Positions 3,242-42,550 of a stretch of DNA of 64,000 bases are shown here, piece by piece. The stretch is from Antonospora locustae (Eukaryota > Microsporidia), in NCBI GenBank assembly GCA_007674295.1, contig CM017459.1, positions 1 through 64,000 on the forward strand. Direction: 5' to 3'. The translations under genes and the position numbers were made by a program. Position 1 is the stretch's first letter, and each line of letters opens with the position of its first letter. The notes under the pieces are model-generated. The model was not told the DNA's origin, searched no databases, and saw only the letters and a program-made list of their open reading frames with translations.

Positions 3242-4633
3242 CTACATGTCTTTGGCTCTCGGTGACTGCTCCGATTGCATAACACACAATTCATCCTCTT
3301 CCTCTTCGCTCTCCTCAACCTCTTCTAGTGTGATCGCGCGCCTGCTGAACACCAGCACCGTCCTTGCATAGTACATGCCCTTGTCCTCTATCGCCTCGTT
3401 TCCCGTGCTTCCATAGTAGTACTTGTACTCGTACACCACCATTTGTTTTTGCTGCGCGCTATTCACCTCAACCAGCTCGTTAACCCTGCGCAGCCTTTTC
3501 TTGTCGTCGTCTCTTATCGCCTCCTCCATGCACACCTCATCGTCTGCATATTCATCGACGTCAAAGTCTATCTCCGGCCCATACATGTCTACTTCCGGAT
3601 ACATCACTAGTAGCTTCGCACACCACCCGTTCTTCTTTAGCGCCCTGTACACCCGCAGATCCATCCCCTTCAGCACACACTCCAAGCTCTCCTCCACGCA
3701 CTCCTCTTCCCAGCTCCCCGTGCATCCAATTGTGTACTCCTGCGCAGGGTGGTAGGCATATCTTTTTCGGCCGTCCAGCCTCGCCAGCAATCCCCCCAGC
3801 TCTCTTGATGCAAGCGCATCCACTCTCCTGCCTGTCTCCTCCTCCACTCTCTCCTTCTCGTCTTCCCTGCTGCCTTTGTCCAGATACACGTCATACGTCA
3901 GTGTCAGCCTTGTCCCCCTTGTGACCGTCGACACCTCGTGGTCCGTGTCGCAGAAAAAGCATGCCCAGTCCATCTCCTTCTCCCCCGCCTTTCCCCACTC
4001 AAAGTCTATTCGTATTCCCCGCTTGTCCGTCACAGAAAGCACCCCGCCCTCAAAGCGAAACGGAAGACACACCACTAGCGATGCCACCATGCCCTCTCCC
4101 CGCACCGTGTCCTTGTGACTTGCGAAGTGCCCGCCCTCCTCGTATATTCCCAGCTTGTGTAGCTTCACCGTGAAGTCCCTGTCTCCTAGCAGCCTTCTGA
4201 CCTTCCTGTAGAGCTCTGCATTGTTCTGCGGGACATACTGCGTTGCTATCTCACTTCCCCTCAGCTCACGCGCCTTTCGGACGCTCTCGTCATACACCGT
4301 CTCCGGCCCCTTTCCGAAGCACGACTGCGTCGCGCATGCCTTCATCCTCCTTAGATCCGCGTCTGTCCAGCTGTGCAGGTCGATCGTCCCCGGCGCCGAC
4401 TCCTCTCCTGCCCTCCAGTACACCAGTTTTGAGACATCGTCTCCGAGCTTAACTCGCCCTCCCGTGCAGAACTGCTGCGTTCCGCATTTTTCTACTATCC
4501 TCTCAAACTCTGTCTTTGCATCCGCCTCCTGGTGTCCATCCTCGCTCCTCCCGGCCCATGCTCTTTCTGCCACCATGCTCATCTGCACAATCATGCCTGC
4601 ACAAAACGCCACTCGGACTCCGTTTCCAAACAT
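3242..4633 (-). CDS. 2-oxoglutarate/Fe(II)-dependent oxygenase, fungal prolyl-4-hydroxylase-like
   Basis: The 463-residue protein carries the double-stranded beta-helix core of fungal 2OG-Fe(II) oxygenases. The order is KLHKLGIYEEGGHF, then iron ligands H173 and D175 in FASHKD, a LVVCLPFRFEGG strand, the distal iron ligand H232 in DTDHEVSTV, and R242 in GTRLTLTYDVY to bind the 2-oxoglutarate carboxylate. The full iron-binding set is present, so the enzyme is probably active. Its substrate is unknown, and related fungal proteins are mostly uncharacterised. The first 27 residues are hydrophobic enough for a weak signal sequence. The C-terminus is acidic (EEVEESEEEEDE). The ATG is preceded by GAGCCCAT, the CCC signal seen before most genes here. 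It is the only intact gene in the first 6.6 kb, flanked by the two copies of a decayed segment. Confidence 0.8.
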   Translation of the reverse strand: MFGNGVRVAFCAGMIVQMSMVAERAWAGRSEDGHQEADAKTEFERIVEKCGTQQFCTGGRVKLGDDVSKLVYWRAGEESAPGTIDLHSWTDADLRRMKACATQSCFGKGPETVYDESVRKARELRGSEIATQYVPQNNAELYRKVRRLLGDRDFTVKLHKLGIYEEGGHFASHKDTVRGEGMVASLVVCLPFRFEGGVLSVTDKRGIRIDFEWGKAGEKEMDWACFFCDTDHEVSTVTRGTRLTLTYDVYLDKGSREDEKERVEEETGRRVDALASRELGGLLARLDGRKRYAYHPAQEYTIGCTGSWEEECVEESLECVLKGMDLRVYRALKKNGWCAKLLVMYPEVDMYGPEIDFDVDEYADDEVCMEEAIRDDDKKRLRRVNELVEVNSAQQKQMVVYEYKYYYGSTGNEAIEDKGMYYARTVLVFSRRAITLEEVEESEEEEDELCVMQSEQSPRAKDM

Positions 4634-19106: not shown

Positions 19107-19658
19107 TTATTCACAGGCAGGAAGCACGGGCTCGCCAGGCGCCATGTTCTGTGCGGATCTCTCAAAATACTTTGTGTGTTTTGATTCAATGTAGAACACG
19201 GGGCTCTTTGTCCACACAAGTGCGTGGTTGTCATTCAGATTGCATCCAATGGATGCCCTTTCGCAACCCGGAGAGCCTGCATCGCCTCTGCACTGTTCAC
19301 TGTGCGCCGCAGCGCACACGTGAATGCTGTCGCCGTCCTTTTCCTCGTGCCATATTCCCTGAAACTCAAGGTCCATATCGACCCCTCGCTTTAAACAAGG
19401 ACTTTGCATCCCTTTACTGCTACTTTCCTGTCCATCCTGCGTGTGCTCCACATGCAAAAAGCAGCAGCGCCGTCCATACTTGCAGAACCTGCTGCTCAGA
19501 AAATTCTTGCATATCTCGGTCTTGTACCGTGGATGCCTCTCCACGCTTCTAAGTTCGTGGACGCTGTGTGCAAACTGGCATCTCTCGTTGTACCTGCATA
19601 TTCCATAGACCTCGTAGTTTCTGCAAAGCTCAGTCTTGTACATCTTGTTCTCGTTCAT
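19107..19658 (-). CDS. tandem CCCH zinc-finger RNA-binding protein, TTP/TIS11 (Cth2) type
   Basis: The N-terminus has two C-x8-C-x5-C-x3-H fingers at C12/C21/C27/H31 and C50/C59/C65/H69. Each is led by the YKTE-L/I-C sequence typical of tristetraprolin/TIS11 proteins, with the 18-residue linker of that family. Such proteins bind AU-rich elements in mRNA 3' regions and promote decay. The remaining 110 residues are low in recognisable structure. The ATG at 19658 gives 183 residues. No CCC run precedes it, unlike most neighbours, so another start (Met6) is possible. It lies upstream of the HMG-box array on the same strand. Confidence 0.85.
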
Positions 19659-19810: not shown

Positions 19811-20212
19811 TCAGACCGCTTCGTCGCTGTCCTGTGCATCAGCAGCATCTCGAAACCTTTTCTTGACGTCTTCTGGCTCTGCATCCCACATATCTTGAAG
19901 CCTTTTGCCTGAGACGTTTGGGCACAGCTTCTCTCCGTACAAGCTGATCGGTGTTCTTTTCTTTCTTCTCCTGGAGACTCGAGACTGTCTTCTGATGCCA
20001 CAAAGCTTCTCATGGAAAAGCACCTCGCCCTCCATTATGTCGACGTCCTTTGCCAGTCCGTCGAAAATGTCCGCTACAGAGAGAAACAGAGCAGCTATGC
20101 CTCCGTACACGTGCGCGCCGGTGTATTTCTTGGGAGCATACAGCGGCTCGTATGTGTTGAAGAGAATTCTCAGAATTTCTATGACGTTGTCGAGTTCTGC
20201 GTCGCCTTCCAT
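19811..20212 (-). CDS. small HMG-box protein 1 of 5
   Basis: The 133-residue protein begins at ATG 20212, preceded by GCACCC. The C-terminal part is a short HMG-box (KRTPISLYGEKLCPN, then RLQDMWDAEPEDVKKRF and RDAADAQ) with the characteristic central Trp and following Lys/Phe and Ala positions. The box is the most divergent of the five and lacks a long third helix. The N-terminal part holds VYGGIAALFLSVADIFDGL (residues about 35-53), matching a motif found in all five array members (Y-x2-L/I-A-x2-F-x6-F-x2-L). A basic RRQSRVSRRRKKR stretch joins the parts. HMG boxes bend DNA, so a chromatin or regulatory role is inferred. Confidence 0.7.
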   Translation of the reverse strand: MEGDAELDNVIEILRILFNTYEPLYAPKKYTGAHVYGGIAALFLSVADIFDGLAKDVDIMEGEVLFHEKLCGIRRQSRVSRRRKKRTPISLYGEKLCPNVSGKRLQDMWDAEPEDVKKRFRDAADAQDSDEAV

Positions 20213-20265
20213 GGGTGCTGCAGACTGTGCACAAACCCCTTTTCAGCACTGTATCTACATAACAG

Positions 20266-20610
20266 CTACTTGTCTTTCCTTTGTCTCTTGGCCTCTCTCT
20301 TAAGGGCATAAATGTCAGCTGAGCTCTTCGCAAGAGCCTCGTATCTTGTTTTCGTCTCTGCATCTAGGTCGTACTTCCACATGCGCACAAAGTCAGTGTC
20401 TTTGCCATACTTTGCGCGGTAGTGTCGCCTGAAGAATAAGAAGCCAGGTGATTTATTAATCAGCAACAACATGTCTCCGCCCTTTTTTTTTTTCATGCGG
20501 AGCGGGAGAGAGTGCTTGAGCGTCCTGAATGTCAGCGAAAGTGCGCTGAACAACTTTGCCAGCACGTAGTAGTTCTTGCCGAGGGGCGAGAGTCTCGAAT
20601 ACCTTCTCAT
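20266..20610 (-). CDS. small HMG-box protein 2 of 5
   Basis: The ATG at 20610 (MRRYSRL) follows GCCCCTCC, giving 114 residues; a longer GTG-initiated reading is rejected. The N-terminal motif is YYVLAKLFSALSLTFRTL. The HMG-box spans about residue 52 to the end (KSPGFLFFRRHYRAKYG, FVRMWKYDLDAETKTRY, EALAKSSADIY) and finishes with a basic REAKRQRKDK tail that could act as a nuclear signal. A run of 11 A (minus strand, 20483-20493) encodes the Lys tract between the two parts; this homopolymer is prone to slippage and sequencing error. The stop lies 54 bp before the start of array member 1. Confidence 0.75.
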   Translation of the reverse strand: MRRYSRLSPLGKNYYVLAKLFSALSLTFRTLKHSLPLRMKKKKGGDMLLLINKSPGFLFFRRHYRAKYGKDTDFVRMWKYDLDAETKTRYEALAKSSADIYALKREAKRQRKDK

Positions 20611-20623
20611 GGAGGGGCAGTTA

Positions 20624-21058
20624 TTACTCGCTTCCACGATGCTCGGCAGACTCTGTGCTGCAGCTCTGCTCTGCACGCCTCTTCGTGCTCTCGATCACTC
20701 TTCTTCGGTGCTCGTTCTCCTCTGCTGCCTTTTCCCTACATATCTGCTTAGTCTCCTCACTGGCCCTTTCCCATAGCTTCTTCACTTGTTTGAACATATC
20801 TCCATCTGACTTGCTGACAAGATGATGAAAGTCGCGCAGGAATATTCTGTACGCGTTCATGTTTGCCATGCGTGGTGAAGACACAACCTGTCTAGGCAGA
20901 TTCCTGTAGGCGTTAAGGAGCCTGTCCAGATACACAATGTCATCAAGCCCCAGCTCGTGCGGGGAGTCCAGCTCCTGAAACAGAAATGCAATTGCCCGAA
21001 AAATGTCCGCAAGATAGGCGTACCGAGCCTGTATTGCATTGTTTCTGTTGCTCTTCAT
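20624..21058 (-). CDS. small HMG-box protein 3 of 5
   Basis: This is the best-conserved box of the array. The ATG at 21058 lies after GAACCCCACCGAGC. Residues about 11-30 carry the shared motif (ARYAYLADIFRAIAFLFQEL). The HMG-box at about 66-120 reads MNAYRIFLRDFHHLVSKSD, then KQVKKLWERASEETKQICRE and KAAEENEH, with the Trp and Ala landmarks, and is followed by a basic stretch (RRRVIESTKRR). The 144-residue protein ends only 13 bp before the start of array member 2, on the same strand. No second DNA-binding motif is present. A DNA-bending regulator is inferred from family knowledge. Confidence 0.82.
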   Translation of the reverse strand: MKSNRNNAIQARYAYLADIFRAIAFLFQELDSPHELGLDDIVYLDRLLNAYRNLPRQVVSSPRMANMNAYRIFLRDFHHLVSKSDGDMFKQVKKLWERASEETKQICREKAAEENEHRRRVIESTKRRAEQSCSTESAEHRGSE

Positions 21059-21129
21059 GCTCGGTGGGGTTCTGTGTCAAGCTTTGGCTGGATAGTGGGT
21101 CTGTTTATTGAGTGAGTTGCTACGTTGCT

Positions 21130-21477
21130 CTATCTGTGGCCTCTGTGTCTTGTGTTATAGTGCAGGGCCATCGCTTCGTACTTCTCTCTTGTGCTTGTGT
21201 CCAGCTCGTTGTACCACTTCTTGCATATTTTAGCATAGTGATCAAGAAGACTCTCGCCAACGTATGGCTTCTTGTACATCTCTCTTGCAAATACATCAAA
21301 ACCAGTTATTCTCTGCTCCTGCTTCCTATTAAACGTACGGTCTCCTGGCCATATGTCTTCCAGCCTCAGCGCCAGTGGTGCTTTGTTCTTCAGTCTTCCA
21401 AAGACCTTTCCTACCAGGAGAAATGCTTTTGCGAGGCACATGTACTTCTGCTTTGTAGAACGTGTCTGGCGAGACAT
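21130..21477 (-). CDS. small HMG-box protein 4 of 5
   Basis: I chose the ATG at 21477 (MSRQTRSTKQ) because GAAACCC directly precedes it; another in-frame ATG lies at 21489. The 115-residue protein has the shared N-terminal motif YMCLAKAFLLVGKVFGRL. The HMG-box reads ITGFDVFAREMYKKPYVGES, then YAKICKKWYNELDTSTREKY and EAMALHYNTR. The Trp, Lys-Tyr and Ala positions of the box are in place. The linker contains LRLEDIWPGDRTF; LEDI resembles LDDI at the same place in member 3, extending the similarity between array members beyond the short motif. It ends 71 bp before member 3. Confidence 0.78.
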   Translation of the reverse strand: MSRQTRSTKQKYMCLAKAFLLVGKVFGRLKNKAPLALRLEDIWPGDRTFNRKQEQRITGFDVFAREMYKKPYVGESLLDHYAKICKKWYNELDTSTREKYEAMALHYNTRHRGHR

Positions 21478-21543
21478 GGGTTTCTGCATACCGCTGTGAT
21501 TCACTCACCTTTCATAGGCATACATGTGCCTCTCCAAAAGTGC

Positions 21544-21930
21544 CTAGTCCTGCTCCATGTGCTTTTTCTGCATCTTCTCGAAATGTTCCTCCGCCTTGCG
21601 CCTGTACCATTCCTTTTCTTCCTTGGAGAGACAGGCCCACTCTTCATGCGGAGAGAACTTGAACGGAGAATTCAGAGCATCGTATCTTCTTGCACGAAGC
21701 TCGTCGATTTTGAACAAGTCCAGCCCAGTAGGTCTGTAGAAGCGCCCAAATCTTTCGCATGGAATATTCCTAGCACATTTATGTGTGAATCTTTTTACAT
21801 ATTTCTGTCTCTTCATCATCTTAATGCTTGGAATGAAGGCTTTTGCATATATTCGTTCAAATTCTACTGAAAGACTGTGAAATACTATTGAGAGCGCTTT
21901 TATCTTGCGGTAGAAGTTTCTAGTTATCAT
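21544..21930 (-). CDS. small HMG-box protein 5 of 5
   Basis: The ATG at 21930 follows ACTCCCCA. The 128-residue protein has a very basic first half. The shared motif is a weaker match (FYRKIKALSIVFHSLSVEFERI). The HMG-box at about 68-125 reads RPTGLDLFKIDELRARRYDA, then FSPHEEWACLSKEEKEWYRR and KAEEHFEKMQKK. Its second helix is shifted relative to members 3 and 4, but the Trp and the KEW-YRRKAEEH third helix are typical. It is the first gene of the five in transcription direction and follows the forkhead gene on the same strand with an 86-bp gap. Confidence 0.78.
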   Translation of the reverse strand: MITRNFYRKIKALSIVFHSLSVEFERIYAKAFIPSIKMMKRQKYVKRFTHKCARNIPCERFGRFYRPTGLDLFKIDELRARRYDALNSPFKFSPHEEWACLSKEEKEWYRRKAEEHFEKMQKKHMEQD

Positions 21931-22016: not shown

Positions 22017-22631
22017 CTACACAGACTCCGACGAGCTCTTGCTGTTCTTGAACGCAAAGCTGTTATAGTAGTACTTGTTATAGTCTGCAGTGTAGTATGT
22101 CTCGGTGTTATGGGGAGGCGGTGCAAGCAGGAAGGGCGGAGTGTGCGACGGTACACCCGTCTCGTAGTAGTCTTCAAGGTAACATGGTGCTCTCTGGAAG
22201 TACTCAGGGTACCCCATGTCAGCATGCATGCTTGCTCCTGTGTAGCTGCTCATTGTGTGCCGTGGAGTGGGCAGTGTCATGTCTGCCATACTGTCCACAA
22301 AGTATCTTCTGGTTCTTGTATATCTTTCCTCTACAAGCTTGTTGTACTCTACAAACTTCCAGTAGTGGAGCTTGGATGCCTTTTCCTTCTTTGTCTTGAC
22401 AAACTCAGGACATTTGCTCAGGAGCTGCCGCACGTTGTTTTTCCACGTGACTGCGTTCAGCGACGTGAAACACTCGGGATGCTTCCTCATCATGTACTCA
22501 AAAATCTGGGCAGAAGTCGCGCGTCCTTCTGCAGATCCCAAAATGGCCTCCCGTATGATGGAAAAGTACGTGAAGTTCTTGTCGATGACATTCTTTCTTG
22601 CCATTTTTATGCTGATGCAAATTGCCTGCAT
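22017..22631 (-). CDS. forkhead (winged-helix) transcription factor
   Basis: The forkhead domain covers about residues 20-93. Helix 1 reads NFTYFSIIREAIL, helix 2 ATSAQIFEYMMRKHPECF, and the recognition helix NAVTWKNNVRQLLS, followed by CPEFVKTKKEKASKLHYWKF. The canonical recognition-helix N-S-I-R-H-N-L-S is changed to N-N-V-R-Q-L-L-S, so the base-contacting His is Gln and target choice may differ. The C-terminal half is rich in Tyr, Pro and Ser without a second fold, like an activation region. Two ATGs are possible: 22631, used here, and 22604 (MARKNV). Neither has a CCC run. It lies between the HMG-box array and the 5S rRNA gene. Confidence 0.85.
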   Translation of the reverse strand: MQAICISIKMARKNVIDKNFTYFSIIREAILGSAEGRATSAQIFEYMMRKHPECFTSLNAVTWKNNVRQLLSKCPEFVKTKKEKASKLHYWKFVEYNKLVEERYTRTRRYFVDSMADMTLPTPRHTMSSYTGASMHADMGYPEYFQRAPCYLEDYYETGVPSHTPPFLLAPPPHNTETYYTADYNKYYYNSFAFKNSKSSSESV

Positions 22632-22719
22632 TTATGAGAAACACGCCACATGGCCACACATACTCGATGCGATCGAGCGATGAGAAGTCCGTCAGCACTG
22701 CGTCAGATTGCAAGCAAAA

Positions 22720-22835
22720 GCTACAGTACCTGCATTTCCCAGGTGGTCGCCCACCCAAGTACTCCACAGGCTCTCACAGGCTTAACTTCAGAGATCTGAC
22801 GGGTTCTGGTGTTCTACTGTGGATATGACCGCAGC
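22720..22835 (-). rRNA. 5S ribosomal RNA
   Basis: The minus strand holds a 116-nt 5S rRNA. The ends pair over 8 bp (GCTGCGGT with the 3' end ACTGTAGC, allowing G-U). Internal landmarks are intact: TCTGAAGTTAAGC in the loop/box A region, GAGTACTTGGGTGGGCGACC, and CCTGGGAAATGCAGGT. The internal control regions for TFIIIA and polymerase III are therefore present. A T run (TTTT, minus strand) immediately after the 3' end is the expected pol III terminator. The gene stands alone, not in an array, between the forkhead and OB-fold-like genes. It is unrelated in position to any large rRNA operon in this window. Confidence 0.93.
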
Positions 22836-22851
22836 TAAATGCTCAGCTAGC

Positions 22852-41731: not shown

Positions 41732-42550
41732 TTAGTCGTCATCATATTCAGGTGTTTTCCAATTCAATCCTACATCAAAACGATTTTTCGTATCTCGGAA
41801 CTTTTGTATCATATTTGACGGGTTTCTTCCCATTGCTGCAAATATAAATGGATTGTATTTCTTTTCCTCCTCGAAAGTCAGAAACCTTTTGTCCTCAACT
41901 TCCTCTGGTATCTCGACTTTCGTAACCTTGACACAACAGGTCTTTGTGAATTTTAGGTCTGAAACGTTATAATCGTGTCCGTAGAGAACGATTGCCTCAT
42001 TCGGTACCATTTCAACGATCTTTTTCAGACACTTTGCCATGTGATCACCATTGCCTTCAAAGAAAAGACCGCATCCAAGAAAGAAAATTGTATCTCCTGT
42101 CACTAAGTAATGCTTATTTCCCGTGTTGACTAGAAAGCAGAAGCTGTCCTTTGTATGACACGGAGTGTGTATGCATTTTATTTCAAAATTTCTTTCTTTT
42201 ATCATGTCTCCGTCTTTACACACTTTATTGTTTGAATTGCTGTCTTTGCACCAATCTTCTTCGAACCCCGAGACGAAAACAGTACCTGGCGAAAATTCTG
42301 CCAAGTCTTTGTTTCCACCTGAGTGATCCAAATGGCTATGTGTTGTTAAATTGTACAAAAGTCTTCTTTTCGGACACTTTTCTTCCAGCTTAAGCTCCTC
42401 TATGCATTCATAGTACTCCTGCGTCAAGTCCCTGGAAAGAGCTTCTAATATCACTGAAGAATCAAGAGGATCTATTGAAATTGCTTCCTCATCGTTGTAC
42501 AAGATAAACATGTAGTTATCCTTCAGTGCCTTTATAGCAGCAAAATTCAT
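41732..42550 (-). CDS. glyoxalase II (hydroxyacylglutathione hydrolase)
   Basis: The enzyme hydrolyses S-lactoylglutathione in methylglyoxal detoxification. The metallo-beta-lactamase metal site is complete: H71, H73, D75 and H76 (TTHSHLDHSGG), H132 (TPCHTKDS), D153 (TGDTIFFLGCG) and H192 (LYGHDYNVSDLKF). The 272-residue protein also has the glyoxalase II C-terminal domain (PFIFAAMGRNPSNMIQKFRD). The opening AAIKALKDNYMFILYND is the usual start. Its base composition is much richer in A+T than the core genes, as it borders the AT-rich block, but the ATG at 42550 follows CAACCCTT, the same start signal as elsewhere, so it belongs to this genome. Confidence 0.92.
   Translation of the reverse strand: MNFAAIKALKDNYMFILYNDEEAISIDPLDSSVILEALSRDLTQEYYECIEELKLEEKCPKRRLLYNLTTHSHLDHSGGNKDLAEFSPGTVFVSGFEEDWCKDSNSNNKVCKDGDMIKERNFEIKCIHTPCHTKDSFCFLVNTGNKHYLVTGDTIFFLGCGLFFEGNGDHMAKCLKKIVEMVPNEAIVLYGHDYNVSDLKFTKTCCVKVTKVEIPEEVEDKRFLTFEEEKKYNPFIFAAMGRNPSNMIQKFRDTKNRFDVGLNWKTPEYDDD

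Follow-up and report, generated by a model that had tools for sequence, protein, structure and literature searches.

A tandem array of five small HMG-box-like genes with an N-terminal heptad segment in the microsporidian Antonospora locustae

Within the first 64,000 bp of contig CM017459.1 of the microsporidian Antonospora locustae (hereafter, the window), five consecutive minus-strand open reading frames (ORFs), M1–M5, lie head to tail at positions 19811–21930. They encode proteins of 128, 115, 144, 114, and 133 residues, confirming the original prediction of five consecutive minus-strand genes of 114–144 residues. The genes, their orthologues, a helix segment common to M2–M5, and the relationship of the family profile to HMG boxes are directly supported. 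From these data we infer that the helix may self-associate, that the proteins may bend DNA, and that their role would be an architectural or regulatory one in the nucleus. Taken as a whole, the interpretation of the array as five small HMG-box DNA-binding proteins that oligomerise via the N-terminal helix and stem from an old tandem duplication is one to which we give about even credence. Microsporidia serve as models for genome reduction. Even so, the present genome has retained five duplicated genes, apparently for DNA-binding proteins, which have diverged until they are hardly recognisable while still carrying the same helix.

The shared N-terminal heptad segment

The shared segment is a heptad of 18 residues with hydrophobic residues at positions 1, 4, 8, 11, 15, and 18 and alanine or serine at position 5. 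Hydrophobic or aromatic residues occupy all six a/d positions in each of the 19 proteins considered, i.e., the five array proteins, 12 orthologues, and two M3 orthologues added later.

M1 (21544–21930; all array features are on the minus strand) contains a weak heptad helix at residues 10–27 (IKALSIVFHSLSVEFERI; 21850–21903), a basic linker, and an HMG-like C-terminus. M2 (21130–21477; 115 residues from an MSRQ start) and M3 (20624–21058) each combine a heptad helix, at residues 12–29 (21391–21444) and 13–30 (20969–21022), respectively, with a divergent HMG box, and in M4 (20266–20610) the helix at residues 14–31 (20518–20571) is accompanied by a shortened box. M5 (19811–20212) has an extra N-terminal helix, and its heptad helix at residues 36–53 (20054–20107) runs on into FDGLAKDVDIMEGEVLFHEKL, a sequence shared without change by the four M5 proteins; a patch of basic residues and a shortened box follow.

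The strict motif proposed in the original prediction occurs at four places among the 127,996 residues of the six-frame translation of the window, all of them in M2–M5; as it was derived from these very genes, this count demonstrates specificity rather than significance. The heptad version occurs at six places, namely the five genes and one other. The strict pattern is kept in nine of 17 proteins checked, as well as in both later-added M3 orthologues, and is broken in the remaining three M2 proteins (leucine in place of phenylalanine), in P0017 by a serine at position 5, and in every one of the four M1 proteins.

Further evidence comes from a leave-one-gene-out test, in which a profile built without the tested gene was scored against 1000 composition-matched shuffles per protein. 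For the N-terminal part, no shuffle was as good as the real sequence in any M2, M3, or M4 protein, and 0, 3, 4, and 0 of 1000 were as good for the M5 proteins. The respective counts for the M1 proteins were 40, 0, 7, and 32. An earlier run on 17 proteins with 2000 shuffles gave the same picture (0 for M2–M4, 0–6 for M5, 3–122 for M1). The predicted second module common to all five genes finds support in M2–M5 and is marginal in M1 (0–40 of 1000).

A five-sequence profile of the N-terminal part has four matches with E < 0.01 in PDB, all of them short peptides, the best being ACC-Hex-PheI (E = 0.0022). These peptides are designed coiled-coil assemblies, and the resemblance probably reflects a helix that self-associates rather than common descent. 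The possibility that the module is a decayed first HMG box was considered and rejected. The canonical HMG gene of this genome, located in contig C17 (L001:1474–1998), encodes a protein of 174 residues with two boxes, and the N-terminal profile has no match to it, with 366 of 1000 shuffles scoring as well, so that the module is absent from that protein.

The C-terminal HMG box

By its sequence, the C-terminal half of the proteins is an HMG box of divergent type. HMGB1 (E = 8.7e-10) and Nhp6A (E = 5.8e-5) are both matched by the family profile, whose 35 PDB hits at E ≤ 0.01 all belong to HMG-box proteins, with HMGB1 at the top and an SRY/HMGB1 fusion in fifth place. SOX chains are present among the VIA rows for M5, rows that barely test the N-terminal part. 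Against the two-box protein from C17, the profile of the C-terminal part scores 26.0 bits (0 of 1000 shuffles as good), and M3 alone matches this gene with E = 0.0011. The strong divergence of the boxes stated in the original prediction is borne out: the profile links them to HMGB1, yet no family member, when searched individually, reaches the Pfam cut-off. HMG-box genes in such genomes can thus drop below Pfam cut-offs. A search of the whole genome (3,170,203 bases in 17 contigs, the window belonging to contig C13) with PF00505 at E ≤ 0.001 yielded the C17 gene only.

Each of the 19 aligned proteins has one box, and its tryptophan is invariant. The distance from the first aromatic residue to this tryptophan, counted by eye on the alignments (the M5 aromatic residue being also matched by eye), is 26, 26, 24, 20, and 18 residues in M1–M5, compared with 28 in box 2 of the C17 protein. 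On this count, M1–M3 are near-canonical, and M4 and M5 lack 8 and 10 residues in front of the tryptophan. The box half carries a net positive charge in each of the five genes (+1 to +9); M5 is acidic overall. The array proteins share with HMGB1, Nhp6A, and the C17 protein a C-terminal box with the conserved tryptophan and differ from them in having a single divergent box, shortened in M4 and M5, that lies below the Pfam cut-offs.

In the leave-one-out test of the C-terminal part, 0–1, 0–4, 0–8, and 1–56 of 1000 shuffles were as good for M2, M3, M4, and M5, respectively, and for whole proteins the counts were 0 for M2–M4 and 0–1 for M5. M1 is the least secure member of the family, as 27–840 of 1000 shuffles were as good for its C-terminal part and 9–952 for the whole protein. 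The M1 box matches Pfam HMG_box_2 with E = 0.057 among 24,736 models; among its orthologues, P0014 matches this model with E = 0.51, and P0008 and P0009 have no match. The score of M1 against the HMG boxes of its own genome is equalled by 4–17 of 500 shuffles.

Family history and possible function

A homologue search with the five proteins returned 17 sequences at E ≤ 1, i.e., the five queries plus 12 further proteins, which BLAST assigned three each to M1 (identity 67–77%), M2 (66–73%), M4, and M5. A search with M3 and a distant M5 orthologue added two M3 orthologues, P0018 (78%) and P0019 (71%). Orthologues share equal longest-contig figures, namely 13,759 (M1, M2, M3), 2619 (M1, M3, M4), 9776 (M4, M5), and 1899 (M1, M2), which suggests that they are linked in the relatives too. 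In the tree of 19 proteins, each group forms one side of a branch, with ultrafast bootstrap and Shimodaira–Hasegawa-like approximate likelihood ratio test supports of 100/99 for M1, 99/97 for M3, 97/97 for M4, 93/83 for M5, and 59/72 for M2; the deep joins are long branches and unreliable. Since all five groups are recovered in the relatives, the duplications most simply predate the split of these species, to judge from the sequences, which supports the original prediction of an old tandem expansion. The array is apparently maintained in this genome of about 3 Mb and in the relatives as well.

In four of the five genes, conservation between relatives is higher in the N-terminal part (pairwise identity of the N- and C-terminal parts 77/67% in M2, 84/66% in M3, 83/73% in M4, and 69/58% in M5), and hence the module is the more constrained half rather than a loose tail. 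The order is reversed in M1 (66/76%). Neither this difference nor the shortening of the M4 and M5 boxes was part of the original prediction. The 21 residues of M5 mentioned above (20002–20064) are identical in all four M5 proteins, one of which is only 53% identical overall, and their first residue falls among the last four of the heptad segment.

Searches with 5, 17, and 2 sequences (1036, 1218, and 89 candidates, respectively) found no homologues beyond close relatives; absence at larger distances is not established by them, as the method depends on shared five-residue words and known M2 and M3 proteins escaped the 17-sequence search. In these searches, the N-terminal module and the five-gene array turned up in close relatives only. 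To find paralogues, five protein queries (three from the array and two orthologues from relatives) were compared with the whole genome at E ≤ 10. They returned each query's own array gene, an overlap on the opposite strand inside M4, a weak place in contig C11 (E = 0.011, one internal stop) where the listed ORFs hold no similar protein, and, for M3, the HMG gene of C17. No convincing paralogue was therefore found outside the array in a search whose queries failed to list the other array members and which would miss equally divergent paralogues elsewhere.

HMG boxes bind and bend DNA. The C-terminal divergent box of the array proteins would do so with little sequence specificity, and the N-terminal heptad helix, with its aromatic and aliphatic a/d residues, would join the proteins into homo- or hetero-oligomers in which at least two boxes would act jointly on DNA. 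The original suggestion of DNA-bending regulators dimerising through the N-terminal helix is plausible, and the helix is here specified as a heptad, coiled-coil-like one. This pairing of boxes would resemble that achieved by the coiled coils of SoxD and that proposed for Gcf1. SoxD proteins are animal proteins, much larger and with a Sox-type box located C-terminally of the coiled coil. In SOX5/6/13, the N-terminal coiled coil mediates formation of homo- and heterodimers (PMC6265484; PMC7793875). The array proteins would resemble them in the design of an N-terminal helix plus an HMG box, and no relation of the helix sequences was found. For Gcf1, a group of mitochondrial HMG proteins of Candida, coiled-coil oligomerisation has been proposed; these proteins have two HMG boxes and act on mitochondrial DNA, whereas the array proteins have one box each in the alignment of 19. 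Microsporidia are not known to have mitochondrial DNA. An HMG box combined with a dimerising coiled coil is thus a known design, and the claim that the architecture is undescribed stands for the five-gene family only, for which we found no description in the literature on microsporidian HMG proteins, transcription factors, and duplicated families, the published annotation of the genome lying outside this survey.

One alternative, that five unrelated small helical proteins are alike by chance or composition, draws on the BLAST comparisons, which link only M2 with M4 (E = 2e-6) and M2 with M3 (E = 0.009) among ten pairs, and on the partial failure of M1 in the whole-protein test (9–952 of 1000). 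We consider it highly improbable, and for M2–M5 it is close to refuted by the leave-one-out tests against composition-matched shuffles; the common order of parts, orientation, adjacency, and conservation in relatives argue against it as well. It is also improbable, if less so, that the helix folds onto its own box or linker as an intramolecular cap and forms no oligomer. The segment of only 18 residues is indeed short for a stable coiled coil, and single-chain models cannot discriminate between these possibilities; however, the linkers differ in length and sequence among members, and the N-terminal profile resembles peptides that self-assemble as coiled coils.

The main rival to oligomerising DNA-binding proteins is that the boxes, decayed in their DNA-binding function, now serve as helical protein-interaction domains, the helix docking on a fixed partner, for instance a chromatin or transcription complex, rather than on paralogues. 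This is rather unlikely in our view. It would fit the shortening of the M4 and M5 boxes by 8 and 10 residues (20 and 18 compared with 28), the better conservation of the N-terminal part in four of five groups, and the acidic M5 with its 21-residue stretch kept intact in four proteins, even in the one 53% identical overall. It is harder to reconcile with the net basic charge of the box half in all five genes (+1 to +9) and with the tryptophan invariant in 19 of 19 proteins. Returning to oligomerising proteins, a more elaborate version, in which the five paralogues pair through the aromatic heptad helix into distinct heterodimers with a chromatin-organising or regulatory role, is doubtful and is offered tentatively. 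If true, such a combinatorial set would mean that architectural DNA-binding proteins had expanded in this lineage, in an organism otherwise marked by gene loss. Should the proteins pair, the helix would offer a ready entry point to a regulatory system that is poorly understood, in organisms that are genetically hard to manipulate; as of 2013, no genetic manipulation system was available for microsporidia (PMC3749934).

Start signals and neighbourhood of the array

The intergenic gaps from M1 to M5 are 66, 71, 13, and 53 bp. A CCC triplet is situated within 15 bp upstream of all five starts, compared with 11% of 1536 ATGs in window positions 1–42,000, in agreement with the predicted conservation of start signals. 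In M2 it precedes the second in-frame ATG (MSRQ) rather than the first; this triplet favours the MSRQ start, as does the M2 orthologue P0010, which begins at the same position. Eight other genes of the window, with starts taken from the ORF list, have CCC in four cases, GGG in one, and neither in three. In A. locustae, as in other microsporidia, a CCC motif has been described ahead of the start codon of ribosomal-protein genes, and transcripts spanning several genes are reportedly common in A. locustae (PMC2803860); hence, the five genes could be co-transcribed.

The array is flanked by a CCCH zinc-finger gene (19107–19658) and a forkhead gene (22017–22604). A full-length match to 5S rRNA (22718–22836, minus strand; Rfam, 102.9 bits) shares the strand of both the forkhead gene and the array and sits directly upstream of them. 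An N-myristoyltransferase gene is located beyond these immediate neighbours. T. hominis has one orthologue of the HMG gene from the TPT–HMG–helicase locus (PMC3486916). That gene, like those of the array, is a microsporidian HMG gene; it is single and in some species stands beside a transporter and a helicase, whereas the array sits between the CCCH and forkhead genes. A sex-locus interpretation of the array was rejected, since its immediate neighbours are the CCCH, forkhead, and 5S rRNA genes and not a transporter and a helicase; this rejection rests on the neighbourhood of the array, the ORFs of the window being partly annotated and the rest of the genome not having been searched for that locus.

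Elsewhere in the window, Pfam places a 2OG-Fe(II) oxygenase domain (E = 1.3e-6) in a 463-residue ORF (3242–4633, minus strand). Local reduction of GC content is ascribed to centromere-like regions of A. locustae (PMC13174016), and in the window GC content drops from about 50% to about 20% at 42000–64000 (30% at 42–44 kb), remaining low to the window end.
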